Shown here piece after piece: positions 637 to 47,832 of a stretch of DNA of 48,060 nt (position 1 is the first letter of the stretch; every line of letters begins with the position of its first letter). The notes under the pieces are model-generated. The model ran no database searches. It saw nothing but the letters and a program-made list of their open reading frames with translations, and was not told the DNA's origin. The position numbers were made by a program, and so were the translations under genes. The stretch is from Candidatus Amesbacteria bacterium GW2011_GWC2_45_19 (GTDB taxonomy: Bacteria; Patescibacteriota; Microgenomatia; CAZETR01; Amesbacteraceae): the NCBI GenBank assembly GCA_001001555.1, contig LCKS01000009.1, positions 1-48,060 on the forward strand. Direction: 5' to 3'.

Positions 637-1590
637 CAAAACTTCTGCCATCTCTTCCAGGGACTTAGTCTCAAACAGCCTGGCCCGCAAATCACCTGCC
701 CCCTCCCATCCCTTGATATACACTTTCACAAATTTCTTCATAATCGAAAAATTTTTAGTATCTCCCCACGTCTTCTGCCACAATTTAATATGTTCCCGCA
801 GTAAATTAATATTCTCTTGAGGGCTGAGGGTTGCGGGCTGAGGGCTGAAAGCATTTATGCTTTCCAGCACGCCGCGTCCAATCATCACCCCATCCACCCC
901 TGACTCCTGGCTCCTAACTCCTGCCTCCTGGGCATTTTTAATGTCGCCGTTGCCGATAATTACTGTGTCCACTAATTTCTCATTTCTCATCTCTACGACC
1001 TTCTTGATCTCATCCCAATGCGCCGGGACATCAGACGTTTCGCGAGCAGTGCGCCCATGCACTGTCAGCGCGTCAATTTTTTGTTCCAACAAGAATCCGC
1101 ACCAATCCTCGGTCACAATTTTATCCAACCCAATCCTCGTCTTTACACTCACTGGCAACCTCCCCGCCCCTTTCTTAACCGCCGCAATTATTTTCGCTGC
1201 CAAACTCCGGTTATTTATCAGGGCAATACAGCAGCCGTTTTTAACCACGTCTTTTTCCGGGCAGCCCATGTTAATATCCACCCCGTCGAATCTTAATCTC
1301 TTAATTAACTTAGCCGCTTCGTAATAATTCTTCGGATCTTTCCCCCAAATCTGGGCCACAATCGGCCTCTCAACCTCGGTAAACGCTAACCGTTGTAGCA
1401 GAGAGGGATCAGAGGGTGAGTTATTAATGGCGTGTATGATTCCCTCCACGTTCGTAAACTCCGTAAAAAACACATCCGGACGTGCGACTTTAGCCACCAT
1501 CTGCCGAAAAACCGTATCCGTCACCTCCTCCATCGGCGCCAACGCCAAAAAAGGTTTTCTAGATTTTGCCAATTTTTGCCATAGATTCAT
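607..1590 (-). CDS. dus: tRNA-dihydrouridine synthase (Dus family)
   Basis: FMN-dependent enzyme that reduces uridines to dihydrouridine in the tRNA D loop. The 327-residue protein has the family N-terminus (LALAPMEEVTD, 15-25), the catalytic-cysteine motif NMGCPEKD with Cys110, the TVHGRT motif near 180 and the FMN-phosphate segment GDGVMIGRG-like (VDGVMIGRG) near 235. ATG at 1590 lies 6 nt after TATAAT (1597-1602), suggesting a leaderless mRNA. Three tandem 7-bp repeat arrays are translated within it, two of them giving AQEAGVRSQESG and SPQPATLSPQ. The last residues (GWDSNPR) and the stop are antisense to tRNA-Ser(TGA), so the C-terminus is probably a read-out of tRNA sequence. Confidence 0.92.
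   Translation of the reverse strand: MNLWQKLAKSRKPFLALAPMEEVTDTVFRQMVAKVARPDVFFTEFTNVEGIIHAINNSPSDPSLLQRLAFTEVERPIVAQIWGKDPKNYYEAAKLIKRLRFDGVDINMGCPEKDVVKNGCCIALINNRSLAAKIIAAVKKGAGRLPVSVKTRIGLDKIVTEDWCGFLLEQKIDALTVHGRTARETSDVPAHWDEIKKVVEMRNEKLVDTVIIGNGDIKNAQEAGVRSQESGVDGVMIGRGVLESINAFSPQPATLSPQENINLLREHIKLWQKTWGDTKNFSIMKKFVKVYIKGWEGAGDLRARLFETKSLEEMAEVLRKGWDSNPR
817..847. repeat. Tandem 7-bp repeat array in dus
   Basis: Four to five degenerate heptamers of the gagggct/gagggtt type, read on the other strand as CTCAGCC-like words. The same word family recurs in dnaA, tsaD and the PrgI gene. Confidence 0.7.
901..931. repeat. Tandem 7-bp repeat array in dus
   Basis: Four degenerate ctcctgg/ctcctaa heptamers. 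They encode a short extra segment in Dus just before the FMN-phosphate motif. Confidence 0.7.
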
Positions 1591-1596
1591 CGCCCG

Positions 1597-1602
1597 ATTA
1601 TA
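1597..1602 (-). promoter_or_regulatory. -10 box of dus
   Basis: Perfect TATAAT on the minus strand, 6 nt upstream of the dus ATG. It overlaps the left edge of the palindromic element at 1601-1682. Confidence 0.6.
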
Positions 1603-1682
1603 ACTCCCCCTTACGTCCCCCTCTTACGGCGAAAGACGCAAAACGAAGTTTTGATTTAAGAGGGGGATCAGGGGGGGCGTTA
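1601..1682. repeat. Palindromic TA-ended element, copy A
   Basis: Long inverted repeat with inner arms CCCCCTCTTA (1617-1626) and TAAGAGGGGG (1657-1666), and looser outer arms running TAACTCCCCC to GGCGTTA. It fills the space between comF and dus. It provides the comF stop codon (TTA at 1680-1682) and touches the dus -10. A 30-bp centre without symmetry makes it longer than copies C-E. Confidence 0.65.
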
Positions 1683-2351
1683 CCGGGCCAGCGCCAATCC
1701 CCACACTTTTTCTATCCCTGCTTTTTTGAGGACCCGGCAGCATTCGCACATGGTGGCTCCCGTCGTCCACACATCGTCAATGAGTAATACTGTTGTGGGT
1801 AGTGAGTTGTGAGGAGTAATCACAAAAGCTCCCTGGACCGCCTTTAACCGCTCATCACGTTCCCGCCCCGCCTGATGCCCGGTATCCCTAACTCTAAACA
1901 ATAAATGACTATTGCATGACAATTTATGACGCGCAGCGAATGACTTCGCAATAACTTCAGCCTGATTAAACCCCCTCTCCCTATATCTTTTTTCGTGCAA
2001 CGGCACCGGCACCACCACCGGCTTCTCCTGCAAAAATTTTTGCAAATAAAAATATTCCCCGCCCTCCGGCAAATTTATCAATTCCCCCAGCAGGTCATAA
2101 AAATATTTATACTTGGCTTTCTTAATAATCTTCTTCGCGATTCCCTCATAACTCCACAAACAAGTCAGCCCATCCAACCCATAAGATTTGTGACAATACT
2201 TGTGCGGTAATCCATATCTGGAATTCCTGGTACACACGGGGCAAATCTGCTCCTCCTCCCACAATCCCACCTTGCAATCCTCACATACGTAAGCTCCAAA
2301 CTTCCCGCAATTCACGCACTTCTTGGGCCACAAAATATCCAACAGATTCAT
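1680..2351 (-). CDS. comF: ComF family phosphoribosyltransferase-like protein
   Basis: ComF (ComFC) proteins act in the cytoplasm during DNA uptake for transformation. The 223 residues match the usual length. An N-terminal zinc-finger-like region has CxxC pairs (CVNC 13-16, CEDC 26-29, CPVC near 40). The C-terminal PRT fold has the PRPP-binding motif VLLIDDVWTTGAT at about 188-200. ATG at 2351 overlaps the TGA of the GIY-YIG gene (ATGA), so the two are translationally coupled. A 7-bp repeat array (1792-1820) encodes the segment PHNSLPTT just before the PRPP motif. A DNA-uptake role fits an organism likely to scavenge nucleic acids, but that is inference. Confidence 0.88.
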   Translation of the reverse strand: MNLLDILWPKKCVNCGKFGAYVCEDCKVGLWEEEQICPVCTRNSRYGLPHKYCHKSYGLDGLTCLWSYEGIAKKIIKKAKYKYFYDLLGELINLPEGGEYFYLQKFLQEKPVVVPVPLHEKRYRERGFNQAEVIAKSFAARHKLSCNSHLLFRVRDTGHQAGRERDERLKAVQGAFVITPHNSLPTTVLLIDDVWTTGATMCECCRVLKKAGIEKVWGLALAR

Positions 2352-2584: not shown

Positions 2585-2590
2585 AAATAA

Positions 2591-2596
2591 AGTATA
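2591..2596 (-). promoter_or_regulatory. -10 box of the GIY-YIG/comF operon
   Basis: TATACT on the minus strand, 6 nt upstream of the GTG start. Upstream, 2597-2675 holds an inverted repeat around GCCCAATGGGC and no gene. Confidence 0.45.
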
Positions 2597-3081: not shown

Positions 3082-3098
3082 GACTGCTTTGTAGTATA

Positions 3099-3512: not shown

Positions 3513-3517
3513 ACAAA

Positions 3518-3541: not shown

Positions 3542-5377
3542 TTACAACTTTATGACATAAACCTTACTCCCCGCCAATAAATATATCTTCCCCGTCTTCT
3601 CATCCACCACCAGCCCCGTCGCCCCTTTTATCGCCTCATTCACATACTGACTCTCGTATTCTCCGGTCTTAGCCAGGACCACTATCCGCCCACCGGCCGT
3701 ATCCAGTACATATAATTTTTCCGTCTCGTCGTCCGTGTATATCACTTCTCCCTCCAGCCCTTCCACCCCGCTTACTTCAAAACTCTCCTTCACCCCCCTG
3801 GTATACTTTCTAATTTCTAATTTCTCATTTCTAATCTCTGTAATCCACACGCTGCCATCAATCGCCATCCCTAAATAATCTCCGGCTTCAGATAGCCAAG
3901 ACTGCTTGGCCCCATACCCCCCCTCTCCTCCCTGATGTTTCCAAATACCCGCTTTAGACAACAAGTAAATATTTCCTCCCCACATCCCCATATCCACTAT
4001 CTCCCCCCATCCATCATCCGGCTTCACAACTACTTGGCACTTAGCACCTAGCCCCTGGCACTCTACGATTCCTTTGTCAGACAAAACCACCGTTTTTCCC
4101 GGATACGTAGCCAAAAGTCTGGCCTCTCCCAGATCATTTTTTCCCGCCACTACTTCCGCGCTTTTCTTCCCGGGATTAACCTCTATTAACCGATCGCCCT
4201 GCGTATCCAGCACCACTAATTTCCCATCTCTCATTTCTAATTTCTCTCCCACCATCCCCTCTCTCACCAGCCCCAGATCCAGCACCAGCTCCGGCTGCGC
4301 CACCTTTGTCCCCATCGCTTCATTCCACACCCCCTCCCATTCACCGACTATTTGCATCACCCTCTTATCCTTACTTTGAGTTTTTGAATTTTTGAGTTTT
4401 TGCACTTCCGGATCTATTTCTTTCAAAAGTTCTCTGCTCCTGGCCGGATTCAACGTCACTACCGCCTTAGCCTCATTAAATTTTTCGCTAATCATCTCAA
4501 TCTGCTTATTTTGCTCACTTTGCTTAATCTGCTTATTCCGCTCACTCCACCTCCAGCCCCCCACCAGCACCATCAGCATCACTAAAAATCCTATCCCCGC
4601 CCACATCATTCTCTTCCGGTCCAAATCTTTATTTCCCCGCACCACATACACCCCGCCGCCGCGGGGCAAACTCGGCCACCTTAATTTCGGCAGTTTTATC
4701 TCCGGCAGCTTAAAATTTATTTTGGGTTTCTTAATTTGATCATTTAAATTTACTTGGGATTTAGAATTTAGAATTTCGGATTTGTCGTTGTGCAATTGCA
4801 CGACGACCCCTACCGCCCCTTCCCCCCTCTCCCCCCCGTGCACCACTGCCCCCAGTGTCTCCACTGCCGCCTCCACATCATTATTTTCCACTGCCGCTTT
4901 CACTACCCCTAACGGCAGCTCTTCCCAAAACCGGCTATTCCCCAACACCAAGATCTCTTGATTTTTTGTCCAGCTGCTCAACACCCTCACCCCCGGTTCC
5001 GCGTCCGGCCGGATAACCCACCCTTCCTTCTCCTTCATCTTGGCCCACGCCCCTCCCATATTTGCCGCTACATACAGCACTTCTCCCACCGCCGTCAGTA
5101 CTACCATCTCTACCCCCTCAAACTCGGTCTCCATCGTCTCTACCATCCGTTTTAGGTTTATCATCGCCTCCTCTTCCAAATTACCAAAATACAGTTCGTG
5201 CACCCTCGCCAGCAGTTCCCGTCCCATCTCCACCATCTCTACCTCGGTTTTTTCCCCACTTACCGCCAGACTAGCCGCTACAATTAAACGACCTTTTGTC
5301 TCATGCACAAAATCATGTACCTGCGCCCACCGCTTCCCGCTGATCCTGCCCACTATTTTACCTACATATATTTCCAT
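3542..5377 (-). CDS. Membrane protein with PP2C-like N-terminus and propeller-like C-terminus
   Basis: Hypothetical, 611 residues from ATG 5377. The frame is open further upstream, but that part is Cys/Gly-rich and overlaps the next gene, so I reject it. Residues 1-196 resemble a degenerate PPM/PP2C-type domain (GRLIVAASLAVSG, MVVLTAVGEVLYVAANMGG, VLVLGNSRFWEELP); the acidic metal-binding set is not clearly present, so it may be inactive. A Lys/Pro-rich linker leads to one TM helix at 257-276, a helical segment at 280-350 and, from about 365, repeated strands like an NHL/YncE beta-propeller. Translated 7-bp and 9-bp repeat arrays occur within it. Possibly an envelope signalling protein. It is 5 bp from the next gene, so same operon. 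Confidence 0.7.
   Translation of the reverse strand: MEIYVGKIVGRISGKRWAQVHDFVHETKGRLIVAASLAVSGEKTEVEMVEMGRELLARVHELYFGNLEEEAMINLKRMVETMETEFEGVEMVVLTAVGEVLYVAANMGGAWAKMKEKEGWVIRPDAEPGVRVLSSWTKNQEILVLGNSRFWEELPLGVVKAAVENNDVEAAVETLGAVVHGGERGEGAVGVVVQLHNDKSEILNSKSQVNLNDQIKKPKINFKLPEIKLPKLRWPSLPRGGGVYVVRGNKDLDRKRMMWAGIGFLVMLMVLVGGWRWSERNKQIKQSEQNKQIEMISEKFNEAKAVVTLNPARSRELLKEIDPEVQKLKNSKTQSKDKRVMQIVGEWEGVWNEAMGTKVAQPELVLDLGLVREGMVGEKLEMRDGKLVVLDTQGDRLIEVNPGKKSAEVVAGKNDLGEARLLATYPGKTVVLSDKGIVECQGLGAKCQVVVKPDDGWGEIVDMGMWGGNIYLLSKAGIWKHQGGEGGYGAKQSWLSEAGDYLGMAIDGSVWITEIRNEKLEIRKYTRGVKESFEVSGVEGLEGEVIYTDDETEKLYVLDTAGGRIVVLAKTGEYESQYVNEAIKGATGLVVDEKTGKIYLLAGSKVYVIKL
4032..4066. repeat. Tandem 7-bp repeat array
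   Basis: Five degenerate cacttag/cacctag/cccctgg heptamers inside the propeller region. The same words occur at 7456-7489 (SpoIID gene) and 37801-37830 (ligase-like gene). Confidence 0.7.
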
Positions 5378-5382
5378 TGGGA

Positions 5383-5622
5383 TTACAACACGGCTATCGC
5401 CAGAATTACTAAAGCAACAGCTAACAGTAGATGCACCCAAGCAAACAACGAAATCACGCCGTTGACATCGTCCTCCACCGCCTCCGTCATAATTTTTACC
5501 TGCCTCACAATTACCACCGCAAAAGCCACATACATCAGAAGACCCACCACCAAAAACCACTTCACCACCCCAAACAACGTAATCTTCTCCAAACTATTAA
5601 CTATGAACTCTGAACTATTCAC
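5383..5622 (-). CDS. 79-residue two-helix membrane protein
   Basis: Small integral membrane protein of a type common in CPR genomes, resembling the DUF5657-like layout (MYVAFAVVIVRQVKIMTEAVE). It has TM helices at about 18-41 and 58-78 with a short acidic linker (TEAVEDDVNG). Start GTG at 5622 has AGGAGG 7 nt upstream (5630-5635) and overlaps the upstream PH-domain gene by 8 bp; a 5-bp gap precedes the PP2C-like gene. The N-terminus (NSSEFIVNSLE) is encoded by tatgaac-type 7-bp repeats (5597-5622). Function unknown; an accessory to its membrane neighbours is plausible. Confidence 0.7.
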   Translation of the reverse strand: MNSSEFIVNSLEKITLFGVVKWFLVVGLLMYVAFAVVIVRQVKIMTEAVEDDVNGVISLFAWVHLLLAVALVILAIAVL

Positions 5623-6262: not shown

Positions 6263-6271
6263 ATTGTATCA
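6263..6271 (-). promoter_or_regulatory. Extended -10 of the PH-domain operon
   Basis: TGATACAAT on the minus strand (TG-n-TACAAT), 6 nt before the ATG. It fits a leaderless start. Confidence 0.55.
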
Positions 6272-7966
6272 CTTTCTCTCAATATTAAAGAATGCAAACC
6301 CGCTTTGGGGAATTTGCAATCTCCCAGGAGCCCGCAAATTAAAGGCTGTTTTAAAATCAGATCCGCTTAGGCGGATTTCTCCTTTATCAGTCTGAAACAC
6401 CACTTCATTTGTCCGGCCGTTTCCCAGAGATACATAGACCGAAGACACTGATAACGGACCATTGGCTTTAGACCGGAGTTCAGAATATGAATAGGGGTTG
6501 CCTCCCCAGCAGGATGTGGTAATGGGCGTTACTCTGTCGTCTCTATACAGCGCGGCGTTAATTATGTCCGCCATTTCTTCAGAGGAAAGCCAGGGATTAT
6601 CCCTTCCACAAGAGTCGCCGCTGGGCGAATAACCTTTTCTATACCACGCTTTGTAGGCCCAAGGTGATCCCCCGATTTTCTCATAGCTTTTGTCAAAAAA
6701 GTTTGCTCCCCCACCACCATCGGTCGTGTCCCAGCCCATGGTGGTAATATAGCCTCCCGTGGTAGAAGAATAATAGGTCACGACTCCATCCAGAACCTGG
6801 CCGCGGGTTTCCTGGACTGCAGTCCGCCACTCACTCGGAGGATTGTCGGCCTTTGATTTTCTAAAAACCTGACAATATTCATCCGTACAAATAGATTTAC
6901 CCCCGATTTTGTAGCGATAGGCATATGTTCTGGCCGCAATGGCCTGCGCTTTTAGAGCCGGCATGGGAAAACTTGATGGCATCTCCGCAATTCCCAGCAG
7001 ATAATAATCTTCAAAATTCAAGTTTCCCAAACCCGCAACGCTGATAGTTCCTCCGGTATCTTTTCCCACCGGAGATGCTTTATAATAAGCTTGTAAAATT
7101 TGATTATAGTCCTGGCCGCTTTGGGCCCGGCCTTTGGCCCCATACTGGCTCATCCCCTTAGCTCCACCCTGATGGGTATAGGCCCCAAAAGAAAACACCG
7201 CAAACGACCCTCCGGGCGCGGCTTCTCTAAAACCCCTGATAGACGCATTGTAATCATCAGACAGCTCGCTATCCCCGACACTGGCGATAAAGTTGCCGCT
7301 TCTGGCGGCTAGAATTTCATTTTGCCTGGCCGTCAAAGAGGCGATTTTCCCGGACAAATCGGATACATACTTATTCGCCTTAGCTACTTCTCCCGCCAGC
7401 CACTTGGCTTGGTCATCCACTCTTTTTTTCAACGCATCCACATTCAGCTTTTGATCACTTAGCACTTGGCCCCTAGCCCTTAGCACTTGTATTTCCCCCG
7501 AAATTTCGGCGATCAACTCCCGGTCATCCCTGGCCAGTTTCTCCCGGTAAGCCAGATCCGCAAACAGCCGCTGCGCCGTCTGGTCCGCAAACAGCGTTGT
7601 CAATATCGTCTGGTCCCGCTTACGGATATAATCCCTTTTTACCCGCGCGGCCAATAGGGTTTCCCGCACCCCAATTTTTACCTGTCTTTCAAACACGTCT
7701 GCTTGCAACTTTTGAATTTGGGAGTTTAATTGGTTTATTTGAGCTTTGAGATTTGAGATTTGAGTATTGAGACTTGCCAACTCGCGGGAGTTGGTGGCAT
7801 TGGCTTTCGAAATCGCGTCCGCGAACCCGCTGAATTTACTGATACAAGGCCCAATCTGCTCCAAACCCAAACTGCTGATGTTGTCGCACTCATCAGCCCG
7901 CACTATCCCCGCCGTCGCCAAAATTACCATGAACCATGAACCAATAACTAATAACTTTTTTCTCAT
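6269..7966 (-). CDS. SpoIID/LytB domain protein with coiled coil
   Basis: Exported protein with a SpoIID domain, a family that cleaves or activates cleavage of peptidoglycan glycan strands. Start ATG 7966 (565 residues) is preferred over 7981, because TAAGAT lies 5 nt upstream and the signal peptide then begins MRKKLLVIG. After cleavage near ADEC, a long coiled coil spans about 50-235. The SpoIID part runs from about 260 to 555, with HQGGAKGMSQYGAKGRAQSGQDY, YLLGIAEMPSSFPMPALKAQAIAARTYA and YYSSTTGGY motifs intact. Signal peptide, coiled coil and linker each contain translated 7-bp repeats. Likely acts at the cell wall. It diverges from the Phd/RelE operon over a shared promoter region. Confidence 0.9.
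   Translation of the reverse strand: MRKKLLVIGSWFMVILATAGIVRADECDNISSLGLEQIGPCISKFSGFADAISKANATNSRELASLNTQISNLKAQINQLNSQIQKLQADVFERQVKIGVRETLLAARVKRDYIRKRDQTILTTLFADQTAQRLFADLAYREKLARDDRELIAEISGEIQVLRARGQVLSDQKLNVDALKKRVDDQAKWLAGEVAKANKYVSDLSGKIASLTARQNEILAARSGNFIASVGDSELSDDYNASIRGFREAAPGGSFAVFSFGAYTHQGGAKGMSQYGAKGRAQSGQDYNQILQAYYKASPVGKDTGGTISVAGLGNLNFEDYYLLGIAEMPSSFPMPALKAQAIAARTYAYRYKIGGKSICTDEYCQVFRKSKADNPPSEWRTAVQETRGQVLDGVVTYYSSTTGGYITTMGWDTTDGGGGANFFDKSYEKIGGSPWAYKAWYRKGYSPSGDSCGRDNPWLSSEEMADIINAALYRDDRVTPITTSCWGGNPYSYSELRSKANGPLSVSSVYVSLGNGRTNEVVFQTDKGEIRLSGSDFKTAFNLRAPGRLQIPQSGFAFFNIERK
7456..7489. repeat. Tandem 7-bp repeat array in SpoIID gene
   Basis: Five units of cacttag/cacttgg/cccctag/cccttag. 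Translated within the coiled coil. Confidence 0.7.
7741..7775. repeat. Tandem 7-bp repeat array in SpoIID gene
   Basis: Repeats of gagattt/gagcttt/gagtatt, giving the coiled-coil segment LNTQISNLKAQINQL. The same gagattt word occurs in dnaN and tsaE. Confidence 0.75.
7927..7957. repeat. Tandem 7-bp repeat array in signal peptide
   Basis: catgaac, catgaac, caataac, taataac. It encodes most of the SpoIID signal peptide. Same words as in the ligase-like gene and dnaN. Confidence 0.75.
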
Positions 7967-7971
7967 AATTA

Positions 7972-7980
7972 ATCTTATCA
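7972..7980 (-). promoter_or_regulatory. Extended -10 of SpoIID gene
   Basis: TGATAAGAT on the minus strand, 5 nt upstream of ATG 7966, in the divergent intergenic space shared with the toxin-antitoxin promoter. Confidence 0.5.
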
Positions 7981-7985
7981 CCCTC

Positions 7986-34150: not shown

Positions 34151-35515
34151 TCATCTGCTTGTCAACAATTTTTTCTTGATATCCCCAATTTGGTTGTGGA
34201 CAGCTTGGTCTGTCTGCATAGCCAGAACCACTTTTTTGTCGGCGTGCATCACGGTTGTGTGGTCCCTCCCTCCTATTAACCTCCCCACTTCCTCCAATGG
34301 TAATTTTAGATCCGTCCGCAGCAGATGCATCAAAATTTGCCTCGGCCAAACCACGGCTTTGGTTCTCCGTTCTCCCTTAAGCTGTTGCACCCCCAGTCCG
34401 TAGTAATTCGCTATCAGATTAATAACTTCGTTCGGGGTCACAATCCTGGCCTGCCCGTCGGCCGGCTGGCTAATTTTTAACAGCCTCTCCACCATTTCCA
34501 CCGTCACCGGCTCCTTCTTGACCTCCGCCTCGGAGGTGATCCTCATCAAAAACCCTTCCAGTTCCCGTACCCCCTCAATATATGAAGCAATAGCCTGGGC
34601 TACATCCATGGCCAGTTCCTGGCCCCGCTGTTTGGCTTTAATTAAGAGAATGGCCGTCCGTAGTTCAAAATCCGCTGGTCCCACGTCCACAATCATCCCC
34701 GCCCCAAACCGGCTGCGTAGTCTTTCCTCCAGTTTAGATATTTCCCCCGGCGGTTTGTCCGAAGTCATGATAATCTGTCCCCCCTCCCGGCCAATAGAGT
34801 TAAAAGTGTGGAAAAATTCCTCCTGCACCGATGCCTTTCCGGCAATAAATTGCACGTCGTCGATAAGCAGAGCTTTTACTTTCCGGTATTTGCCCCGCAC
34901 CCGGTCGGTATCTTTGTTGCGGATACCCATCACCAGGTCGTTAGTAAATTCCTCTCCGGTACAAAATAGCACCGGCCCTTCTCCCCTTTCGATGACTGCG
35001 TGCCCGACCGCCTGCATTAAATGGGTTTTTCCCACCCCCACCCCGCCGTAAATAAACAGCGGATTGTAAGCCGTTCCCGGTTTACGGGCCACCGCCATGG
35101 CCGCCGCGTGCGCCATTTGGTTTGATCCCGAAACGGCGTAATTATCAAAAGTAAACTCGGATCTTAATCTGGCTCTCTTCACCTCATCACTATCATCTCT
35201 TTCCGTAAACAGCGGCAAGTCTTTCTCTTCTTGAGGGTTGCGCGTTGAGCGTTGAGGGCTGATTATAAATCTTATTTCGCAATCTTTTTCTGTCACCCTT
35301 TTCAACTCCTCCGCCAATTGTCCATAGAAACGTTGCTCCAACAAAGTCTTAGTCATTCCTGACGAGCAGCCTACTTCACATATCCATCTGTCGCCGCTGT
35401 CTGCTATGGCTACTAATTTCGTTTGCCGGATGAGAGTATTGAAGGTTCCCGCAGACACTGCTACCTTCATCCCTTCTAAAACAGTCTTCCAAATTCTGGT
35501 TACGTCTCTGTCCAT
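34151..35515 (-). CDS. dnaA: Chromosomal replication initiator DnaA
   Basis: AAA+ initiator that binds DnaA boxes and opens the origin. 454 residues from ATG 35515; TTG 35521 is an alternative start. Domain I (1-80) carries IWKTVLEGMKVAVSAGTFNTLI. The domain II linker (81-115) contains SPQRSTRNPQ, a translated 7-bp repeat array. Domain III has Walker A GGVGVGKTH (157-165) and Walker B ALLIDDVQF (215-223). The domain IV signature GRDHTTVMHA is present near 425. TATAAC (35525-35530) lies just upstream, with a perfect DnaA box between -10 and -35, suggesting autoregulation. Confidence 0.97.
   Translation of the reverse strand: MDRDVTRIWKTVLEGMKVAVSAGTFNTLIRQTKLVAIADSGDRWICEVGCSSGMTKTLLEQRFYGQLAEELKRVTEKDCEIRFIISPQRSTRNPQEEKDLPLFTERDDSDEVKRARLRSEFTFDNYAVSGSNQMAHAAAMAVARKPGTAYNPLFIYGGVGVGKTHLMQAVGHAVIERGEGPVLFCTGEEFTNDLVMGIRNKDTDRVRGKYRKVKALLIDDVQFIAGKASVQEEFFHTFNSIGREGGQIIMTSDKPPGEISKLEERLRSRFGAGMIVDVGPADFELRTAILLIKAKQRGQELAMDVAQAIASYIEGVRELEGFLMRITSEAEVKKEPVTVEMVERLLKISQPADGQARIVTPNEVINLIANYYGLGVQQLKGERRTKAVVWPRQILMHLLRTDLKLPLEEVGRLIGGRDHTTVMHADKKVVLAMQTDQAVHNQIGDIKKKLLTSR
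35231..35262. repeat. Tandem 7-bp repeat array in dnaA linker
   Basis: ttgaggg, ttgcgcg, ttgagcg, ttgaggg. On the coding strand CTCAACG-type words give SPQRSTRNPQ. Confidence 0.8.
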
Positions 35516-35524
35516 TGCCAATTT

Positions 35525-37474: not shown

Positions 37475-37478
37475 TTAT
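37470..37478 (+). promoter_or_regulatory. Extended -10 of the ligase-like gene
   Basis: TGATATTAT, 7 nt before ATG 37486. The TG and the first bases belong to palindromic copy C. Confidence 0.5.
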
Positions 37479-37485
37479 GTGGTCA

Positions 37486-38691
37486 ATGGTTAATTTGGAA
37501 AAATTCTTGATTGTCCTATTTCTCTTGTTCCTGCCCTCCCAACTCGCTTTTCATTTTTGGCCCGCGTGGAGTCTGGTTAACGGTATTCGTGTCGACTATC
37601 TCTCCCCCACAATATATTTAACAGATTTAATTATTCTTAGCTTATTTCTCGCCTCCCGCCTTCGCGTCCGCATCCCTATATTTATAATCATCTTCTCTAT
37701 TCTTAATATCTTAGTCTCTTCGTCCCCCTTAGTATCTTTATATAAGTGGCTCCGCGTTCTCGAATACCTCTGGCTCTTTAAATATTTAACTCAAAAACAC
37801 TTAGCCCTTAGCCCTTGGCCCTTAGCCCTATCTGTAATATGGACTAGCGCATTGGCCTGGTGGCAATTTTTTCTCCAGGGCTCCGTCGGCGGCCTCTGGT
37901 ATTGGTTAGGTGAACGCCCGCTTTCTGTTTCCACTCCCCTCATTGCCAAGGTCACCCTCACTATTCACAACTCACTACCCACCCTCGTCATGCGCCCCTA
38001 TGCCACATTTCCTCACCCCAACGCCCTGGCGGGGTTTTTGTTGGTTGGAAGTGTAATCCTTTACTCTTTTTATACCTCACCCTTACGTCCCTCTCCTATT
38101 ATAGGAGAGGGATTTAGAGGGAGAGGTATGGGGCTATTGGCCGTCTTAATTGCCCTTCTCACCATTCCCATCACATTTTCCCGCACAGTTATCGTTTTAG
38201 AAATGTTGATTTTATTAATTTGGCTTCGTCCATTGCTTCTTAAAGTATTTCTCCTAATTTCTAGTATCTACTTTCTAATTTCCACATCCGGTTCTGTCGC
38301 ATCTATTCCCGACCGCCTTGATCTTATTCGTAAATCATTATTCCTAATTCAAAAATCGCCGATTCTGGGGGTAGGCCTCGGGTCGTTTATCCCGGCTACT
38401 ATGAACTATGAACTAATAACTAATAACTATTTATATCAGCCCGTCCACAATATTTACTTGCTCCTCGCCTCCGAACTCGGCCTCCCCGCCGCAATGGTTA
38501 TTGGTTATTGGTTATTGGTTCATGGTAAAAAAATGCTCCGAACTATGAACTATGAACTAATAACTGCGGTCGCCGTGATCGTGATTACAGGCGCCGCAGA
38601 CCATTACTGGCTCACTCTCCACCAAAACATTTTATTATTAATTATACTTATAGCCTATGCATATTCATACCGATGGGGGAGCCAGAGGTAA
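37486..38691 (+). CDS. O-antigen ligase/polymerase-like membrane protein
   Basis: Wzy/WaaL-like polytopic protein of 401 residues (ATG 37486; ATG 37477 is an alternative). About ten hydrophobic segments. The periplasmic-loop motif RPYATFPHPNALAGFLL (near 172-188) is the O-antigen ligase signature, and PILGVGLGSFIPA (near 295) and QPVHNIYLLLASELGL (near 320) agree. It probably joins or polymerises surface polysaccharide. Oddities: palindromic copy D is translated in frame (TSPLRPSPIIGEGFRGRG, about 197-214), and at least four 7-bp arrays add segments such as MNYELITNNY. The 3' end overlaps rnhA by 35 bp. Confidence 0.82.
   Translation: MVNLEKFLIVLFLLFLPSQLAFHFWPAWSLVNGIRVDYLSPTIYLTDLIILSLFLASRLRVRIPIFIIIFSILNILVSSSPLVSLYKWLRVLEYLWLFKYLTQKHLALSPWPLALSVIWTSALAWWQFFLQGSVGGLWYWLGERPLSVSTPLIAKVTLTIHNSLPTLVMRPYATFPHPNALAGFLLVGSVILYSFYTSPLRPSPIIGEGFRGRGMGLLAVLIALLTIPITFSRTVIVLEMLILLIWLRPLLLKVFLLISSIYFLISTSGSVASIPDRLDLIRKSLFLIQKSPILGVGLGSFIPATMNYELITNNYLYQPVHNIYLLLASELGLPAAMVIGYWLLVHGKKMLRTMNYELITAVAVIVITGAADHYWLTLHQNILLLIILIAYAYSYRWGSQR
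37801..37830. repeat. Tandem 7-bp repeat array
   Basis: ttagccc, ttagccc, ttggccc, ttagccc. Translated LALSPWPLAL in a loop of the ligase-like protein. Confidence 0.85.
38073..38128. repeat. Palindromic TA-ended element, copy D (in frame)
   Basis: TACCTCACCC to GAGAGGTA, 56 bp. Minus one TA this is 54 bp, exactly 18 codons. The central palindrome CCTCTCCTATTATAGGAGAGG is preserved. It matches copy E read on the opposite strand. Confidence 0.85.
38398..38430. repeat. Tandem 7-bp repeat array
   Basis: aactatg, aactatg, aactaat, aactaat, aactat; translated MNYELITNNY. A second near-copy is at 38540-38566. Confidence 0.85.
38493..38526. repeat. Tandem 7-bp repeat array
   Basis: ggttatt three times, then ggttcat; translated within a membrane helix (VIGYWLLVHG). 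Confidence 0.85.
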
Positions 38692-39061
38692 TCCCGGACC
38701 GGCCGCCTGCGCCTTCGTTGTCACCGACGAAAAAGGCAGACTAATTCACCGGCAAGGTTTTTATTTGGGCGTCACCACCAACAATCAAGCAGAATATTTG
38801 GGAGTCATAAAAGCTTTGGAGTGGTTGTCAGCTCAAAAACATGAAGAAACAGAATTTTTTCTGGACTCCCAATTAATAGTTAATCAGTTAAACGGCCGGT
38901 ATCGTGTCAAAGATTCGGGTTTAAAAATTAAAAATTTAGAAATTAAAGATTTGATTAAAAATTTCAAATTAAAAATTAAAAATTTCTCTTATGTTCCCCG
39001 GACCCAAAATAGTCAAGCAGATTTATTAGTAAATCAAACTCTCGACCGGCGCACGCGGTAG
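38657..39061 (+). CDS. rnhA: Ribonuclease HI
   Basis: Degrades RNA in RNA-DNA hybrids. 134 residues. Active-site elements in order: HTDGGARGNPGPAA (first Asp at 5), TTNNQAEYLGVIKAL (Glu 46), FFLDSQLIVNQLNG (Asp 69) and a C-terminal Asp in NSQADLLVN. The segment KIKNLEIKDLIKNFKLKIKNF is encoded by AT-rich repeats and replaces the usual basic-protrusion region. It starts inside the ligase-like gene; TATACT lies 8 nt upstream. Confidence 0.93.
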   Translation: MHIHTDGGARGNPGPAACAFVVTDEKGRLIHRQGFYLGVTTNNQAEYLGVIKALEWLSAQKHEETEFFLDSQLIVNQLNGRYRVKDSGLKIKNLEIKDLIKNFKLKIKNFSYVPRTQNSQADLLVNQTLDRRTR

Positions 39062-39121
39062 TTTCACGTTGTTCTTGTTCACGCGACGTGAATAGCTGTT
39101 GTAAATTGTAAATTGAAAATT

Positions 39122-39127
39122 GATAAT
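39122..39127 (+). promoter_or_regulatory. -10 box of the DUF4012 gene
   Basis: GATAAT, 7 nt before ATG 39135. It is embedded in a degenerate attgtaa/attgata repeat run (39104-39132). Confidence 0.4.
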
Positions 39128-39134
39128 TGATACG

Positions 39135-41469: not shown

Positions 41470-43432
41470 ATGGGTGCAGCAATTTAAGGAATATTTCTAG
41501 CCCATGTTTTAGTTCCTCTTTGGCTACCTCGCCTTTTTTGGCTTTTTCAATAATCTCATCGCAGTACCAGTGCCAAAACTTATCATAAATAAACTCCGCT
41601 GCCATCCCCAACTGCATCTTCTCTATATGAGCACTTACTGATTTAATGATTTTGTTTAATTCGTTTTTAGTTTCAGCTTTGACGTTTGACTTTTGACTTT
41701 TGACTTCGCTTTGCGCCACAAAACGAGAGGCGTTCCAAATCTTATTCGCAAAATTCCGGTAGCCCCGGATTCTCTCCTCCATCTGTTGTTTAGAGATCAA
41801 CAAATCGTTTCCATTGTCTCGTCCTGCTACCAAAGCCATGCGCACCGCATCCGCTCCATATTTAGCAATTGCCTCGTTAGGGTTTACTCCATTGCCTTTG
41901 GACTTACTCATCTTGACGCCCTTTTCGTCTCTCAATACGCCATTAATTAGGGCAATTTCAAAAGGGACCTTCCCAGTTAGGTACAATCCAAACATAATCA
42001 TTCGCGCCACCCATAAAAATAAAATTTCATAGGCCGTATTCATCACCGACGTCGGATAAAATCGTTCGAAGTCTCTCTCGCCTGAAGTCTTTAGAGTGTT
42101 TGTCGGCCATTGTCCGGAAGAAAACCAGGTGTCAAAAGTATCCGGATCCTGCACCCACCCTTCCCCAGGACTCTCGATTGAAACAGTAGGGGATTCCCTC
42201 TTTTTGTCTTCTTTTCTATACCACGCTGGCAACTGGTGCCCCCACCAAATTTGCCGGCTAATTGGCCAGTCCCGGATATTTTCCATCCAGTTAAAATACA
42301 TTTTTTCATATTTCTGGGGAATAATTTTTACTTTGCCTTCGCGCACCGCTTTGATAGCCGGGGCCGCCAGCTCTTTTGTTTTTACAAACCATTGCCGGGA
42401 AATCAGCGGTTCAATAATCGTCCCGCACCGTTCGCAAGTTTTGACGCTATGTACTAGCTCCTCCGTTTTTATTAATTTTCCCCCCAGCATTTCTATCGTC
42501 TTTTCTCGAGCTGCGGCTACTTTCATAGCTTTTATTTCTTCCGGCACCCCCCCCATAATTTTTCCGTCAAAATCGATCACCGTCAAAGTTGGAAGTTCAT
42601 GTCTCTCTCCAATTTCATAATCAGTCACGTCGTGGCCCGGAGTTACTTTCAAAGCTCCAGTCCCAAATCCCATTTCTACCGCTGCGTCTCCAATGATTGG
42701 AATCTCCCGGTTTACCAGCGGAACCACGGCCGTTTTTCCAATTAAAGCTTTATATTTTTTGTCTTTAGGATTTACCGCTATCGCCACATCCGCAAAAATC
42801 GTCTCCGGTCGGGTAGTGGCAATTGTTACAGACCCGTAATCCAAGAAATACAGTTTATCTGTCTGATCTTTTTCTTCTGTTTCCAAATCAGACAAAGTGC
42901 TTCTACAGCGCACACACCAATTAACAATCCTGTATCCCCGGTAAACTAATCCGTCCTTGTGCATTTTTACAAACGTCTCGAGCACAAGTCGAGAGATCTC
43001 CGGGTCCAGCGTAAACTTCTCCCGGCTCCAATCGCAGCTCGATCCCAGCGCCCGCATTTGGTCTTCCATCAGATGCTTGTTTTCCAAGCAAAAAGCATAG
43101 CACTGTTTAGAAAACTCTTCCCGACCCAGGTCGTGTCGGGATTTACCTTCTTTCTGCAGTTTTTTTTCAAATGTCACTTGAGTCAAAATTCCGGCGTGGT
43201 CCACACCAGGTAACCACAGAGCAGGGGACCCCTTCATCCGGTGATACCGAATTAAAGCATCCGATACGGCGACGAACGTCGCATGTCCCAAATGTAATTC
43301 CCCATTCGCATTCGGCGGCGGCATAATAATGGTGAAGGGCTTGCCGTCTCCTTTGGGCTGAAAAGCCCCACTTTCTTCCCAGTTTTTATAAATCTCTTTC
43401 TCATATTTCTGATGCTCGTAAACCTTATTCAT
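41384..43432 (-). CDS. valS: Valyl-tRNA synthetase
   Basis: Charges tRNA-Val. 682 residues, much shorter than the usual 850-950; the C-terminal coiled coil that clamps tRNA is missing. HIGH-type motif is LHLGHA (45-50 in PPPNANGELHLGHA), the editing domain carries the ATTRPETIFADVAIAVNP motif, and KMSKSKGN is intact. CxxC pairs (CVRC, CERC) suggest zinc binding. The segment SEVKSQKSNVKAETKN derives from a 7-bp repeat array in the anticodon-binding part. ATG 43432 is 6 nt after TAAAAT. The 3' end overlaps rplY. Confidence 0.95.
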   Translation of the reverse strand: MNKVYEHQKYEKEIYKNWEESGAFQPKGDGKPFTIIMPPPNANGELHLGHATFVAVSDALIRYHRMKGSPALWLPGVDHAGILTQVTFEKKLQKEGKSRHDLGREEFSKQCYAFCLENKHLMEDQMRALGSSCDWSREKFTLDPEISRLVLETFVKMHKDGLVYRGYRIVNWCVRCRSTLSDLETEEKDQTDKLYFLDYGSVTIATTRPETIFADVAIAVNPKDKKYKALIGKTAVVPLVNREIPIIGDAAVEMGFGTGALKVTPGHDVTDYEIGERHELPTLTVIDFDGKIMGGVPEEIKAMKVAAAREKTIEMLGGKLIKTEELVHSVKTCERCGTIIEPLISRQWFVKTKELAAPAIKAVREGKVKIIPQKYEKMYFNWMENIRDWPISRQIWWGHQLPAWYRKEDKKRESPTVSIESPGEGWVQDPDTFDTWFSSGQWPTNTLKTSGERDFERFYPTSVMNTAYEILFLWVARMIMFGLYLTGKVPFEIALINGVLRDEKGVKMSKSKGNGVNPNEAIAKYGADAVRMALVAGRDNGNDLLISKQQMEERIRGYRNFANKIWNASRFVAQSEVKSQKSNVKAETKNELNKIIKSVSAHIEKMQLGMAAEFIYDKFWHWYCDEIIEKAKKGEVAKEELKHGLEIFLKLLHPFMPFVTEAVWQELGLPGQLILQPWPVTV
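41677..41708. repeat. Tandem 7-bp repeat array in valS
   Basis: tttgacg, tttgact, tttgact, tttgact. Encodes VKSQKSNVKA on the coding strand. Confidence 0.8.
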
Positions 43433-43446: not shown

Positions 43447-44484
43447 CTAGTTCTCATCCACTCTCCACCTCGGCCTTCGGTCTATAGTATCTGGATCGGT
43501 AAACTCACCGCGTTCGGCTCTGAAACCTGCCGCGATTCCAATCATTGCCGCATTGTCTCCATACATCCCTTTTGCCGGAAAATAAACACCCATCCCAACT
43601 TCATCACTTAATCTCTTAATCTCTTCTCTAAGCTTAGTATTGGCTGCTACCCCTCCACCTACAAGCAAGTCGTGAATACCTCTCCCTCTAACTCCCTCTC
43701 CTATTATAGGAGAGGGATGGGGTGAGGTATAAAAAGCGATAGAGTTCTTTGTCTCTCTTAGTAAGTGTTTAAACGCCGTTTCTTGAAAACTCGCCGCCAA
43801 GTCATTTACTTCTTGAGAGCTGAGCTCTGAGCGCTGAGCGTTGGTTAATCGGTAAAAGGCGGTTTTTAGACCGGAATAACTAAATGCCAAATTTTTCTCT
43901 TTCCCCGCCATCGGCAAAGGTAGGGGATACTTTTTCGGGTTGCCCAGCGCAGCTTTTTTCTCCAGCTCCGCCCCGCCCGGATATCCCAGTCCCAGCATCC
44001 TGGCCGCTTTATCTAATGCTTCTCCCAGCGCATCGTCCATCGTCCTAGCCACGATTTTATATCGCCCAATTTTTTCCACCCAAATTAGCTCCGTATGCCC
44101 TCCCGAAACAACTAAAGCCAATGCCGGAAATCTTACCTCCGGCGTTAGTCCGCTTAGCACATGTCCTTCAATGTGATTTACGGAGATCAACGGCTTATCC
44201 CATTCCTGAGCCAACCCTTTGGCCTTTTTAATACCGACCTCTAAAGCGATGGCAAGTCCCGGCCCCGCTGTGACCGCAATGGCGTCAACATCAGTAACCA
44301 GGGCTTTATTGATAACCCAATCTATTTTTTCTTCATGTGCCCGCTTGGCAATACTCGGCACCACGCCTCCAAACTCTTTATGCAAGGCCACCTGACTCCA
44401 TACCACATTCGACAATATTTTTGTGCCCTCGGTTACAGCGGCGCACGTCTCATCACAAGATGTCTCAATTGCTAATATCTTCAT
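43447..44484 (-). CDS. tsaD: tRNA N6-threonylcarbamoyladenosine synthase subunit TsaD
   Basis: Transfers the threonylcarbamoyl group to A37 of ANN-decoding tRNAs, with TsaB and TsaE. Start ATG 44484 (345 residues) has AGGAGG at 44492-44497; the frame opens 33 nt earlier. Motifs: AIETSCDETCAAV (4-16), HIEGH, VSGGHTELI, ALDKAARMLGLGYPGG and VGGGVAANTKLREE. Two inserts interrupt it: a 7-bp repeat segment (TNAQRSELSSQE, about 213-224) and palindromic copy E in frame (TSPHPSPIIGEGVRGRG, about 253-269) just before the GGGVAAN strand. It overlaps tsaE by 20 bp. Confidence 0.95.
   Translation of the reverse strand: MKILAIETSCDETCAAVTEGTKILSNVVWSQVALHKEFGGVVPSIAKRAHEEKIDWVINKALVTDVDAIAVTAGPGLAIALEVGIKKAKGLAQEWDKPLISVNHIEGHVLSGLTPEVRFPALALVVSGGHTELIWVEKIGRYKIVARTMDDALGEALDKAARMLGLGYPGGAELEKKAALGNPKKYPLPLPMAGKEKNLAFSYSGLKTAFYRLTNAQRSELSSQEVNDLAASFQETAFKHLLRETKNSIAFYTSPHPSPIIGEGVRGRGIHDLLVGGGVAANTKLREEIKRLSDEVGMGVYFPAKGMYGDNAAMIGIAAGFRAERGEFTDPDTIDRRPRWRVDEN
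43677..43729. repeat. Palindromic TA-ended element, copy E (in frame in tsaD)
   Basis: TACCTCTCCC to GGGGTGAGGTA, 53 bp; minus one TA this is 51 bp, 17 codons. Centre CCTCTCCTATTATAGGAGAGG as in copy D. Confidence 0.85.
43813..43846. repeat. Tandem 7-bp repeat array in tsaD
   Basis: gagagct, gagctct, gagcgct, gagcgtt; coding-strand CTCAGCG-type words give NAQRSELSSQE. Confidence 0.8.
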
Positions 44485-44887
44485 ACTCGATCCTCCTTTC
44501 GTTTTCTTTTTCTCCATAATTTAATTTCACCCAAACTATTGTGGCTTGAGATTTGAGATTTGAGATTTGTTTCCGGAACTTATCCGCCCACTCAATGATT
44601 ACTAAATGTTTATTTTTAATCATCTCGATAAGTCCTAATCTTTCTATTTCTGAAAAATCCTCCACTCTCCAGGCGTCGATATGATCCAGCCCCGGATATT
44701 CCCGGTGCAATATAAAAGTAGGGGACACCACAATATCTTTAATTCCCAATTCTTTAGCAATTGCTTTCGTTAGCGTCGTCTTTCCCGCCCCCAGCGGCCC
44801 CGTAAGCGCAATTACGTTCGGGTGTAACGCCAATATTTCTCTGGCGATTTTTTTTATTTCGTTCCTCTTAAATATACAGCTTGCCAT
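44465..44887 (-). CDS. tsaE: tRNA threonylcarbamoyladenosine biosynthesis ATPase TsaE
   Basis: P-loop ATPase that resets the TsaBD complex. 140 residues: Walker A ALTGPLGAGKTTLTKAIAKEL (27-47), SPTFILHREY switch region, HIDAWRVEDFSEIERLGL and VIIEWADKF are all in place. The segment RKQISNLKSQA comes from a gagattt-type repeat array (44545-44571). The start lies inside vanW (34-bp overlap) and the end inside tsaD, forming one tight operon. TsaB is not in the window. Confidence 0.94.
   Translation of the reverse strand: MASCIFKRNEIKKIAREILALHPNVIALTGPLGAGKTTLTKAIAKELGIKDIVVSPTFILHREYPGLDHIDAWRVEDFSEIERLGLIEMIKNKHLVIIEWADKFRKQISNLKSQATIVWVKLNYGEKENERRIEYEDISN
44545..44571. repeat. Tandem 7-bp repeat array in tsaE
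   Basis: gagattt three times plus a partial unit; same word as 7741-7775 and 33427-33458. Confidence 0.8.
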
Positions 44888-46407: not shown

Positions 46408-46413
46408 AAAATG

Positions 46414-46420
46414 TATTATA
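46414..46420. promoter_or_regulatory. Overlapping divergent -10 boxes
   Basis: TATAAT on the minus strand (46415-46420) serves vanW, 7 nt before its ATG. TATTAT on the plus strand (46414-46419) lies 9 nt before ATG 46429. One 7-bp AT core would serve both, so the two genes probably compete for polymerase. Confidence 0.5.
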
Positions 46421-46428
46421 CTTGACAT

Positions 46429-47832
46429 ATGGATCTTCCACCTCAACCTCTATCTTCTCCCATCCAGCCTCAGGTTCCAGCCTCTAGCGTCCAGCGTCCA
46501 CCATCAAAGTTTCCTCTTAGCGCCATTATCATGGCTGTAGTAGTCTTGATAATTTTAGTTGTTGGCTTTTTTGCCGCTAAATCTATTCTTTCCCTAAACA
46601 AAAAAAACCAACCCGTCGAACTGACTTATTGGGGTCTTTGGGAATCCGAATCGGTAGTTAAGCCCCTGATTGATGAATATCAATCCGCCCACCTCAAAGT
46701 TAAAATTAACTATATTTTTCAATCTCCCCGCGAGTACCGCGAGCGCCTGCAAACCGCCTTAAGCATGTCAAAGGGTCCGGACATTTTTAGAATCCACAAT
46801 TCCTGGGTTCCTATGTTTAAGAATGATCTGGCTCCCCTTCCTCCCGCCGTTTACTCTGCTTCTGAATTTGAATCCGTCTTTTATCCGACAGTTAAATCCG
46901 ACCTCCGGCTTTCTGGAAATTATGTAGCTGTGCCCTTAGAAATTGACGGTCTGGCCATGTATATTAATGACGACCTGCTGGCCGCCTCCGCCCTTTCTGT
47001 GCCTGCCACCTGGGAAGATCTGCGTGTTGCCGCTAAAGCCCTTTCCGTTTGCGATTCCGTAGACGGCACTTGTTCATCTGGCGACCGTATCTTAATTTCC
47101 GGAGTGGCTCTGGGCACAGCGGACAACGTTGACCACTGGCAAGATATTCTGGCGATCCTGATGCTGCAAAATAATGTTAATCTCAATGCGCCAGCTGGCG
47201 CATCTGCCGAAGACGCCCTGTCTTATTACTCCGTTTTTAACCGCTCCGACCACATTTGGGATTCTACTCTGCCTCCTTCCACTCAAGCCTTCGCCGCCGG
47301 CAAACTGGCTATTTACTTCGCTCCTTCGTGGCGGGTCTTCGATTTGCAAGCCATCAACCCCCAGATCAAGTTCTCTGTTTACCCCATTCCTCAATTGCCC
47401 CTCGATCCCGCCCGGGGTGAAAAACCCATCACTTGGGCCAGTTACTGGGTAGAGGGGGTCAATAAAAAAAGCCCCAACGCCGCCGCCGCCTGGGAGTTTC
47501 TCAAATTTTTATCTTCCAAAGAATCATTGGCCAAGCTCTATGCCTCATCGGGCCGTATTTTCGGCGAACCCTACAGCCGGAGGGATATGACGGATTCTTC
47601 GCAGTTTGTTCAACCCTATTTATCACAGGCCCCCGACGCCCGCTCCTGGTACATCGCCAGCAATACTTTCGACGGCCCCACCGGCATCAATACCCGCCTC
47701 TCCTCCCATTTCGCCGACGCGGTAAATAGCGTCAATCAGGGCCGCTCTCCCGCCGAAGCCGTCAAAACTTTAAACGCCGGGATAAATCAGGTATTATCCC
47801 AGTATGGCCTCGCTTCCCCCCTCACTCCGTGA
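46429..47832 (+). CDS. Membrane-anchored extracellular solute-binding protein
   Basis: Family 1-type substrate-binding protein (sugar ABC importer type), 467 residues. A Pro/Ser-rich cytoplasmic N-terminus is translated partly from 7-bp repeats (46463-46500). A TM helix at 29-50 replaces the usual signal peptide or lipobox. The binding fold follows: ELTYWGLWESESVVKPLIDEYQ, PDIFRIHNSWVPMFKNDLAPL, VAVPLEIDGLAMYINDDLL and AWEFLKFLSSKESL. No permease or ATPase is in the window. It may feed a distant importer or bind polysaccharide for surface use; undecided. Confidence 0.85.
   Translation: MDLPPQPLSSPIQPQVPASSVQRPPSKFPLSAIIMAVVVLIILVVGFFAAKSILSLNKKNQPVELTYWGLWESESVVKPLIDEYQSAHLKVKINYIFQSPREYRERLQTALSMSKGPDIFRIHNSWVPMFKNDLAPLPPAVYSASEFESVFYPTVKSDLRLSGNYVAVPLEIDGLAMYINDDLLAASALSVPATWEDLRVAAKALSVCDSVDGTCSSGDRILISGVALGTADNVDHWQDILAILMLQNNVNLNAPAGASAEDALSYYSVFNRSDHIWDSTLPPSTQAFAAGKLAIYFAPSWRVFDLQAINPQIKFSVYPIPQLPLDPARGEKPITWASYWVEGVNKKSPNAAAAWEFLKFLSSKESLAKLYASSGRIFGEPYSRRDMTDSSQFVQPYLSQAPDARSWYIASNTFDGPTGINTRLSSHFADAVNSVNQGRSPAEAVKTLNAGINQVLSQYGLASPLTP

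Follow-up and report, generated by a model that had tools for sequence, protein, structure and literature searches.

Heptanucleotide arrays in the window

The window (the whole stretch of DNA analysed, 48,060 nt, from a tiny uncultured bacterium of the Candidatus Amesbacteria group) carries, among others, dus, dnaN, dnaA, tsaD, tsaE and genes for SpoIID, PrgI and O-antigen ligase-like proteins, and degenerate tandem arrays of 7-bp units lie inside these genes, an observation that we confirm as real. Arrays were called with Tandem Repeats Finder and a lag-7 scan, which recovered them where a first-pass annotation of this DNA had reported them, and were counted under one fixed scoring rule. By this rule the window contains 27 degenerate period-7 arrays, compared with a mean of 2.2 (maximum 5) in 40 codon-preserving shuffles. 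The annotation had put the number at about thirty and suggested such shuffles as a check; the excess holds, with the count set at 27. An array that it placed in virB4 was not separately recovered: nothing in 25725-28193 exceeded the threshold except an overlap with prgI. Other lags from 4 to 24 were mostly at the null level in the window, with small excesses only at 8, 14, 15 and 21. The arrays are listed below, with G000 denoting the window's genome and strands being those of the genes.

818..848, in dus (607-1590, -; Dus by Pfam): TGAGGGC array, by Tandem Repeats Finder/lag-7 scan
899..930, in dus (-): CCTGACT/CTCCTGA array; word also in G000 stretches L014, L021 and L027 and in G001
975..994, in dus (-): ATTTCTC array
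3807..3839, in a 672-aa ORF without Pfam match (3542-5560, -): TTTCTAA array (AAATTAG class)
4032..4056, in the 672-aa ORF (-): CACTTAG array
4759..4783, in the 672-aa ORF (-): ATTTAGA array, weakly matching the G043 hairpin element (see below)
5592..5616, at the start of a 79-aa ORF/between ORFs: AACTATG array
7738..7771, in the SpoIID gene (6269-7981, -): TTTGAGA array
7926..7956, in the SpoIID gene (-): array passing from ACCATGA to ACTAATA
25466..25498, in the PrgI gene (25037-25816, +), linker between the PrgI and C-terminal domains: CTCAACG array
25518..25539, in the PrgI gene (+): CACTACC/CACAACT array; related array at the same place in G001
33127..33156, in dnaN (32901-33995, -), encoding a beta-hairpin: AACTATG/AACCATG array; period-7 arrays at these codons also in G001 (weaker), G002, G005, G011 and G012
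33426..33458, in dnaN (-): ATTTGGG array; identical word at the same place in G001
33503..33518, in dnaN (-): CACTACC array; CTCCTGA at the same place in G001, protein length unchanged
33701..33716, in dnaN (-): short TTTTAAT array
35237..35256, in dnaA (34151-35521, -), between domains I and III: CTCAACG array (read on -); 8-bp repeat AGAGCAGG at this place in G001
37800..37829, in the O-antigen ligase-like gene (37477-38691, +): CTTAGCC array
38398..38429, in the O-antigen ligase-like gene (+): array passing from ACTATGA to ACTAATA; absent in G001, G000 being 9 residues longer
38495..38520, in the O-antigen ligase-like gene (+): perfect TGGTTAT array
38540..38559, in the O-antigen ligase-like gene (+): perfect GAACTAT array; other word in G001
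38921..38936, in an RNase H-like gene (38657-39061, +): TTAAAAA array, kept in G001
38959..38984, in the RNase H-like gene (+): AAATTAA array, kept in G001
39099..39132, intergenic: TTGTAAA/TTGATAA array; TTTAGGA/TTAGAAA at the same intergenic place in G001
41678..41706, in a class I tRNA synthetase gene (41384-43432, -): TTTGACT array; array with another word in G001
43820..43840, in tsaD (43447-44517, -): CTGAGCG array; CTTAGCA at the same place in G001, length unchanged
44546..44569, in tsaE (44465-44887, -): perfect TTGAGAT array; 8-bp repeat ATCTCTTA at this place in G001
46479..46500, near the start of a solute-binding protein gene (46429-47832, +): AGCGTCC array

The density of period-7 arrays is 18 per 100 kb genome-wide in the source genome, 12 in a congener and about 1 in other phyla. 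Stretches of G000 amounting to 414 kb (about half of the genome) yielded 76 arrays built on 39 distinct words. An assembly artefact is ruled out by independent genomes having arrays at orthologous sites within conserved synteny, and composition or codon bias by the codon-preserving shuffles and mirror-word controls.

A word vocabulary belonging to the DNA

Recurrence of the same words in unrelated genes, as claimed earlier, was borne out: the 76 arrays of G000 form 90 pairs with identical words, whereas A+T-matched heptamers sampled from the same stretches gave a mean of 5.7 (maximum 14). Similar excesses were observed in G001 (34 versus 2.9) and G003 (15 versus 0.3). ATTTGAG, annotated as gagattt, is present in SpoIID, dnaN and tsaE, and AACTATG in dnaN, the Wzy_C ligase gene and the 79-aa gene; the peptides SPQRSTRNPQ (DnaA) and NTQRSTRSPQP (PrgI) are likewise both there. 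Because identical words are common to unrelated loci, occur in either orientation with respect to coding and are also found in intergenic arrays, the vocabulary belongs to DNA rather than to peptides. Protein-level selection or codon bias creating the repeats is hardly credible: the dnaN hairpin words do fit a conserved pattern (F-x-V-x-x-S-x-F), but intergenic arrays, both orientations with different peptides, and the excess over codon-preserving shuffles refute it as a general cause.

One word, AAATTAG, recurs across array-rich genomes, whereas its mirror image is hardly ever found. A 17-mer composed of CTCAACG units was detected in G000 and only one other among 153 genomes of the phylum, so the vocabulary is partly genome-specific and a purely biochemical bias does not explain it. 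Words may also shift along single arrays (such as ACCATGA to ACTAATA). Among purine/pyrimidine patterns, RRRRRYY and RRRYRYY are enriched and RRRRYRY is depleted, a clearer signal than any one aligned word motif, which was barely above null. A universal T-N-A motif appeared strong by eye but fell to 0.73 versus 0.57 once A+T was matched, and words did not differ from null in leaving RNA or DNA unfolded.

Inherited sites and constant length

Comparison of G000 and G001 orthologues reveals that arrays are shared in 40% of cases, compared with 7% for randomly chosen positions of the same genes. When sites are grouped by protein variability, sharing exceeds independence by about 10-50-fold, and protein tolerance falls short of such an excess. 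Orthologous sites often carry another word, usually without length change, and some carry unrelated words, including one congeneric pair (TGCTCAG versus AATTATG). Amino-acid identity is 0.42 in arrays versus 0.69 in flanks. The first-pass annotation had spoken of near-identical inserts, which is only partly right: the peptides that it named exist, but at 26 of 50 well-flanked sites the protein is exactly as long as its orthologue, and array-less relatives are no shorter at the dnaN hairpin. A view of the arrays as mainly insertions is not supported. No dnaN hairpin array was found in other array-rich families among the few dnaN genes with a readable hairpin. Between G002 and G012 (85-87% identity), none of the mapped arrays, of which only a handful could be mapped, differs by whole units.

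Arrays typically end at 30-34 bp (about 4.5 units), few exceeding 35 bp, in genes and intergenic DNA alike (mean length 27.9 bp coding, 27.6 bp intergenic), and the same peak and drop were observed in other families. One near-perfect array of 102 bp in G270 indicates that slippage-type expansion can happen. Within the family, 178 of 196 arrays are coding, at similar density in coding and intergenic DNA (13.7 and 18.1 per 100 kb, respectively); the coding ones sit at variable loops, beta-hairpins and linkers. Since arrays are spread throughout contigs, the terminal-repeat process suggested earlier finds no support. Their link with GC skew is weak in G000 (rho 0.30) and not significant in G001.

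Plain neutral microsatellites, that is, random heptamers undergoing ordinary slippage and tolerated where proteins permit, appear unlikely in view of these features. Heptanucleotides are reported to be the commonest long simple repeats in most bacteria, as summarised in PMC4679880, MutS is absent, and coding arrays occupy variable positions. However, the words are non-random and do not reflect random local sequence, the mirror of AAATTAG is almost never found, the length limit holds in intergenic DNA too, turnover is length-neutral, and sites are shared more often than tolerance would account for.

Genomes rich in arrays turn up at scattered points of the class Microgenomatia and also outside it, limited neither to G000 nor to its family, and array presence is patchy between genera of one family. 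MutS is missing throughout the family and in nearly all of the class; its loss is not a distinguishing factor, as array-poor relatives also lack it. We also considered that the arrays might serve as binding sites for a factor that organises the chromosome or acts post-transcriptionally, by analogy with a proposal for TAACTGA repeats in Beggiatoaceae. Inherited sites, constant length, retention of arrays as words change and the position of several G043 copies (see below) would fit such a function, but we regard it as quite improbable given 39 words in 76 arrays, similar coding and intergenic densities, both orientations, the patchiness between genera and the lack of a consistent secondary-structure property in the words.

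Origin of the arrays and relation to known repeats

It is possible, though doubtful, that segments of about 30 bp have moved between loci of one genome and replaced resident arrays, whether by gene conversion, short-patch illegitimate recombination or a mobile hairpin element. The probability of an identical word declines from 13.6% at less than 500 bp to 3.4% within the same genome and 1.3% in other genera (null 0.3%), words are replaced wholesale at conserved sites, and G001 has two pairs of identical 30-bp arrays with unrelated flanks. The distant genome G043 has 11 exact occurrences of a composite 23-mer, spread over several contigs (0 in a unit-order permuted control); the 23-mer belongs to an imperfect inverted repeat of 150-170 bp that is made up of heptamers, and one copy of a related hairpin element lies in G000 (stretch L018). 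Several G043 copies directly precede apparent start codons. On the other hand, G000 arrays share unit order no more than permuted arrays do beyond word sharing, which gives no signal of block copying and is expected if each array was written locally; their flanks are unrelated, and apart from the L018 copy they generally contain no conserved inverted-repeat block longer than the array. No reverse transcriptase (PF00078) was matched in G000-G013, which argues against copying and against a diversity-generating retroelement in these genomes.

Our preferred reading, to which we give nearly an even chance, is that the arrays are self-maintaining heptanucleotide tracts that are both made and kept up by a DNA-level process and rewritten in place. 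Once formed, a tract of about 4-5 heptamers would keep being homogenised and rewritten at a set length by copying in which realignment by 7 nt occurs, through slippage or a short template switch at the fork, and realignment errors would stay uncorrected, MutS being absent, such that the tract would outlive its own sequence. The process would favour certain words, giving rise to the vocabulary, and protein selection would only set where tracts survive and which units change to avoid stop codons or frameshifts. Several observations fit this reading poorly: the length limit and the constant unit number in G002/G012 are unusual for slippage, the vocabulary is partly genome-specific, unrelated words occupy some orthologous sites even between congeners, and MutS loss is common to array-poor relatives. 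Slippage seeded by a few words, as proposed in the first-pass annotation, may be one part of the process but does not predict the length limit, stable unit number or wholesale word change. Dedicated copying machinery spread among lineages, which would draw on a genome-specific list of words to write discrete heptamer patches of ~31 bp (about 4.5 units) at sites already present, length-neutrally and in genes and intergenic DNA, seems improbable.

Heptamer repeats in bacteria have long been noted and, to our knowledge, have no accepted cause. The short tandemly repeated repetitive (STRR) sequences of filamentous cyanobacteria have degenerate 7-bp units, with several word families dispersed in each genome, mainly in intergenic regions. 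The G000 arrays are similarly tandem, degenerate, 7-bp and dispersed, and the preferred reading places them with STRR in kind; however, they belong to a different phylum, about nine tenths are inside genes (including dnaA and dnaN), and they show a length limit and in-place word turnover. Rickettsia palindromic elements and other small in-frame repeats place one DNA element in tolerant places of unrelated proteins, as here, but those are insertions of one hairpin family, whereas about half of the present arrays are length-neutral and only the G043-type element is palindromic. TAACTGA direct repeats (2-6 copies) of Beggiatoaceae, Cyanobacteria and Bacteroidetes are also heptameric, patchy over distant lineages and centred on one favoured word whose single-base neighbours are rare, mostly directly upstream of start codons (MacGregor 2015, PMC4679880); in contrast, dozens of related, mostly coding words occur here, and the list of array words does not include TAACTGA. 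According to the summary in PMC4679880, Mrazek's survey likewise found the heptamer to be favoured in long simple repeats and explained this by polymerase contact/slippage, but that summary describes no shared vocabulary, conserved sites or length limit. Borg tandem repeats are genome-specific, fast-evolving and found within and between genes, but their in-gene units are all divisible by three (PMC9879509), unlike the short, degenerate 7-bp arrays here.

No description of such arrays in CPR bacteria was found in the open-access literature searched, in agreement with the first-pass annotation, whose heptamer process with a shared vocabulary and STRR-like unit size is supported, unlike the terminal-repeat origin that it suggested. 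The length limit, the inherited sites and the spread across Microgenomatia and beyond with the AAATTAG asymmetry go beyond that annotation. Conservation of place between species while words change points to an unusual rewriting of DNA itself. As arrays here are dense, lie in essential genes, keep their place as sequence turns over and have a set length and shared words, the cause becomes testable by comparison, and in these bacteria DNA-level repeat writing would partly shape the variable loops of core proteins.

Excess and vocabulary of period-7 arrays

The first-pass annotation had described about thirty arrays of degenerate tandem 7-bp units in the window, with the same heptamers (words) recurring in unrelated genes. 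Both the arrays and the recurrence of words are borne out. A lag-7 scan under one fixed rule detected 27 arrays, compared with a mean of 2.2 and a maximum of 5 in 40 codon-preserving shuffles, whereas most other lags between 4 and 24 were at the null level (small excesses at 8, 14, 15, and 21). Identical canonical words were paired 90 times in the genome of the window, versus 5.7 (maximum 14) for A+T-matched heptamers taken from the same stretches; the corresponding values were 34 versus 2.9 in the congener G001 and 15 versus 0.3 in G003, a relative of the same family.

At the stricter threshold used for genome-level counts, 76 arrays were found in 414 kb of the window's genome and 46 in 390 kb of G001. 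Period 7 (18.3 per 100 kb) stands alone among the periods compared in the window's genome (3.4, 2.4, and 0.5 per 100 kb for periods 6, 8, and 11, respectively). Scanning 50 kb of E. coli revealed no period-7 arrays, and 441 kb from other phyla gave 1.1 per 100 kb. Density within the family ranges from none in the sampled stretches of G007 and G008 to 34 per 100 kb in G003. Dense genomes are also present in at least five other families, whose stretches were selected by AAATTAG matches, so that their densities are biased upward.

Array-bearing genes include dus, a SpoIID-domain gene, prgI, dnaN, dnaA, tsaD, tsaE, and genes for O-antigen ligase-like, RNase H-like, and class I tRNA synthetase proteins. 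A given word can be found in either orientation with respect to coding, and intergenic arrays use the same words; thus a peptide-level cause is ruled out and the vocabulary belongs to the DNA level. Many words contain stop trinucleotides on one strand or both, and 82% of coding arrays carry one on the antisense strand (31% expected), suggesting that coding arrays preferentially lie in the open orientation and hold altered units, which would explain why CTCAACG is read on the coding strand. The words also follow a purine/pyrimidine grammar. An 18-mer of the AAATTAG array was found in 53 of 280 Microgenomatia genomes, in which its mirror sequence was found only once, and the 18-mer is also present outside this class; CTCAACG, unlike AAATTAG, is almost private to the window's genome.

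That genome comprises 814 kb in 21 contigs (95.7% complete by the tool's figures), the window being contig C9. The dnaA gene shares 62-63% identity with its counterpart in Candidatus Amesbacteria RBG_19FT_COMBO_48_16 (MEXE01000003.1), a match to relative G013, which a search of relatives assigned to the same family. Synteny with the window is seen in contig C14 of G001. GC skew in the window is strong and constant in sign (-0.13 to -0.34 per 4 kb) whatever the gene strand, its magnitude being only 0.07-0.1 on several other contigs; in the window's genome this magnitude shows a weak positive trend with array density.

Inherited sites, changing words, and array length

Array sites are inherited and their words are not. 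In orthologous genes, 16 of 40 arrays of the window's genome face an array in G001, compared with 7% at random positions in the same genes. When sites are grouped by local protein conservation, every class exceeds the expectation for independence about 10-fold or more, so that tolerance of variable loops fails to account for these shared sites. The words were identical at 3 of the 16 sites and differed by four or five of seven bases at another 4. Among 50 well-flanked sites, the length difference was zero at 26, and amino-acid identity was 0.42 within and 0.69 around the arrays.

The clearest case is the dnaN beta-hairpin, where the window's genome, G002, G005, G011, and G012 carry period-7 arrays that span the same codons, each genome with its own word; the array is weak in G001 and absent from G004, G006, G007, G010, and G013, and array-bearing and array-less genomes align without a gap. 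In a comparison of the congeners G002 and G012, which are 85% identical across the stretch examined, one intergenic array of 32 bp is unchanged; at one coding site, TGCTCAG units in one genome face AATTATG units in the other. The DnaA linker contains CTCAACG units in the window's genome and an 8-bp repeat in G001.

With a detector that had no upper length limit, arrays in the family averaged 27.9 bp when coding and 27.6 bp when intergenic, with a peak at 30-33 bp and few arrays beyond 35 bp. Other array-rich families show an identical peak and drop, with a few exceptions up to 48 bp and a single long one, a near-perfect 102-bp AAATTAG array at a contig end in the more distant genome G270 (L236, 5849-5950). 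What is limited may be the overall length and not the number of units, because arrays of 8-bp units, too, stay under 40 bp.

Heptamer-built elements and other dispersed repeats

In G043, another distant array-bearing genome, one composite of ordered units (an exact 23-mer) has 11 copies, and permuted unit orders gave no match. These copies are imperfect inverted repeats of 150-170 bp made of heptamers, with a predicted long hairpin fold; in at least this genome, heptamer tracts thus belong to a dispersed element. A related copy lies in the window's genome (L018, 15666-15801). The dispersed heptamer-built inverted repeats are:

L258-L271: sampled stretches of G043
L256: contig C4 of the window's genome
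L257: contig C6 of G001

In several cases the copy stops directly 5' of what looks like a start codon (ruvC-like, dnaJ-like); short hairpins adjoin some copies. Different arrays of the window's genome share unit order no more than expected by chance.

Other repeats were also observed. A REP-like palindrome in tsaD (43680-43771, ctctccctctaactccctctcctattataggagagggatggggtgaggt) is in frame, encoding SPHPSPIIGEGVRGRG; related sequence occurs at L011 1287-1363 and L016 5784-5851, and tsaD of G001 has a heptamer array at this protein position. In-frame inserts in dnaN of G011, G003, and G013 and in tsaD of G006 (e.g., PSASFGHAQDKGSG, PAFAEASAGKDE, PSASSGLSADQ, and RQAQGK) have the look of a further family of short repeats, dispersed and inserted within core proteins. 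Direct repeats of ~180 bp (29134-29315, 29468-29649, and 29920-30096; 97% and 78% identical) follow the VirB4/TraG-like gene, partly within a reading frame without Pfam matches. The ends of contigs C1, C5, C6, C7, and C12 (L009, L019, L021, L022, and L026) have 98-101 bp of identical or nearly identical sequence in common, a pattern that an assembly break at a multi-copy repeat would leave.

Known repeats and possible origin

A search of open-access papers gave no earlier description of such arrays in Patescibacteria. The short tandemly repeated repetitive sequences (STRRs) of cyanobacteria are dispersed and heptameric, and the present arrays resemble them in both respects. Favoured words and patchy distribution are shared with TAACTGA repeats (PMC4679880). 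However, coding location, a length cap, in-place word turnover, and many related words distinguish our arrays from both systems, and their 7-bp units differ from the in-gene units of Borg repeats, which are divisible by three (PMC9879509).

The data show a period-7 signal at the DNA level, word bias, a length set-point, and persistent sites. Plain neutral slippage and a selected function of the arrays are less probable readings, each accounting for fewer facts. Copying between arrays would better fit those words that are specific to one genome and the cases of wholesale word replacement, whereas the lack of a common unit order in the window's genome is a better fit to local writing. Weighing these lines of evidence, we tentatively place local biased rewriting of arrays first, and copying between arrays, which seems rather unlikely, second. 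The family lacks the mismatch-repair protein MutS, which would permit copying with 7-nt realignment but does not set array-rich genomes apart. Under local rewriting, repeated short copying with such realignment would maintain tracts as tracts, so that words would turn over while place and length stay.
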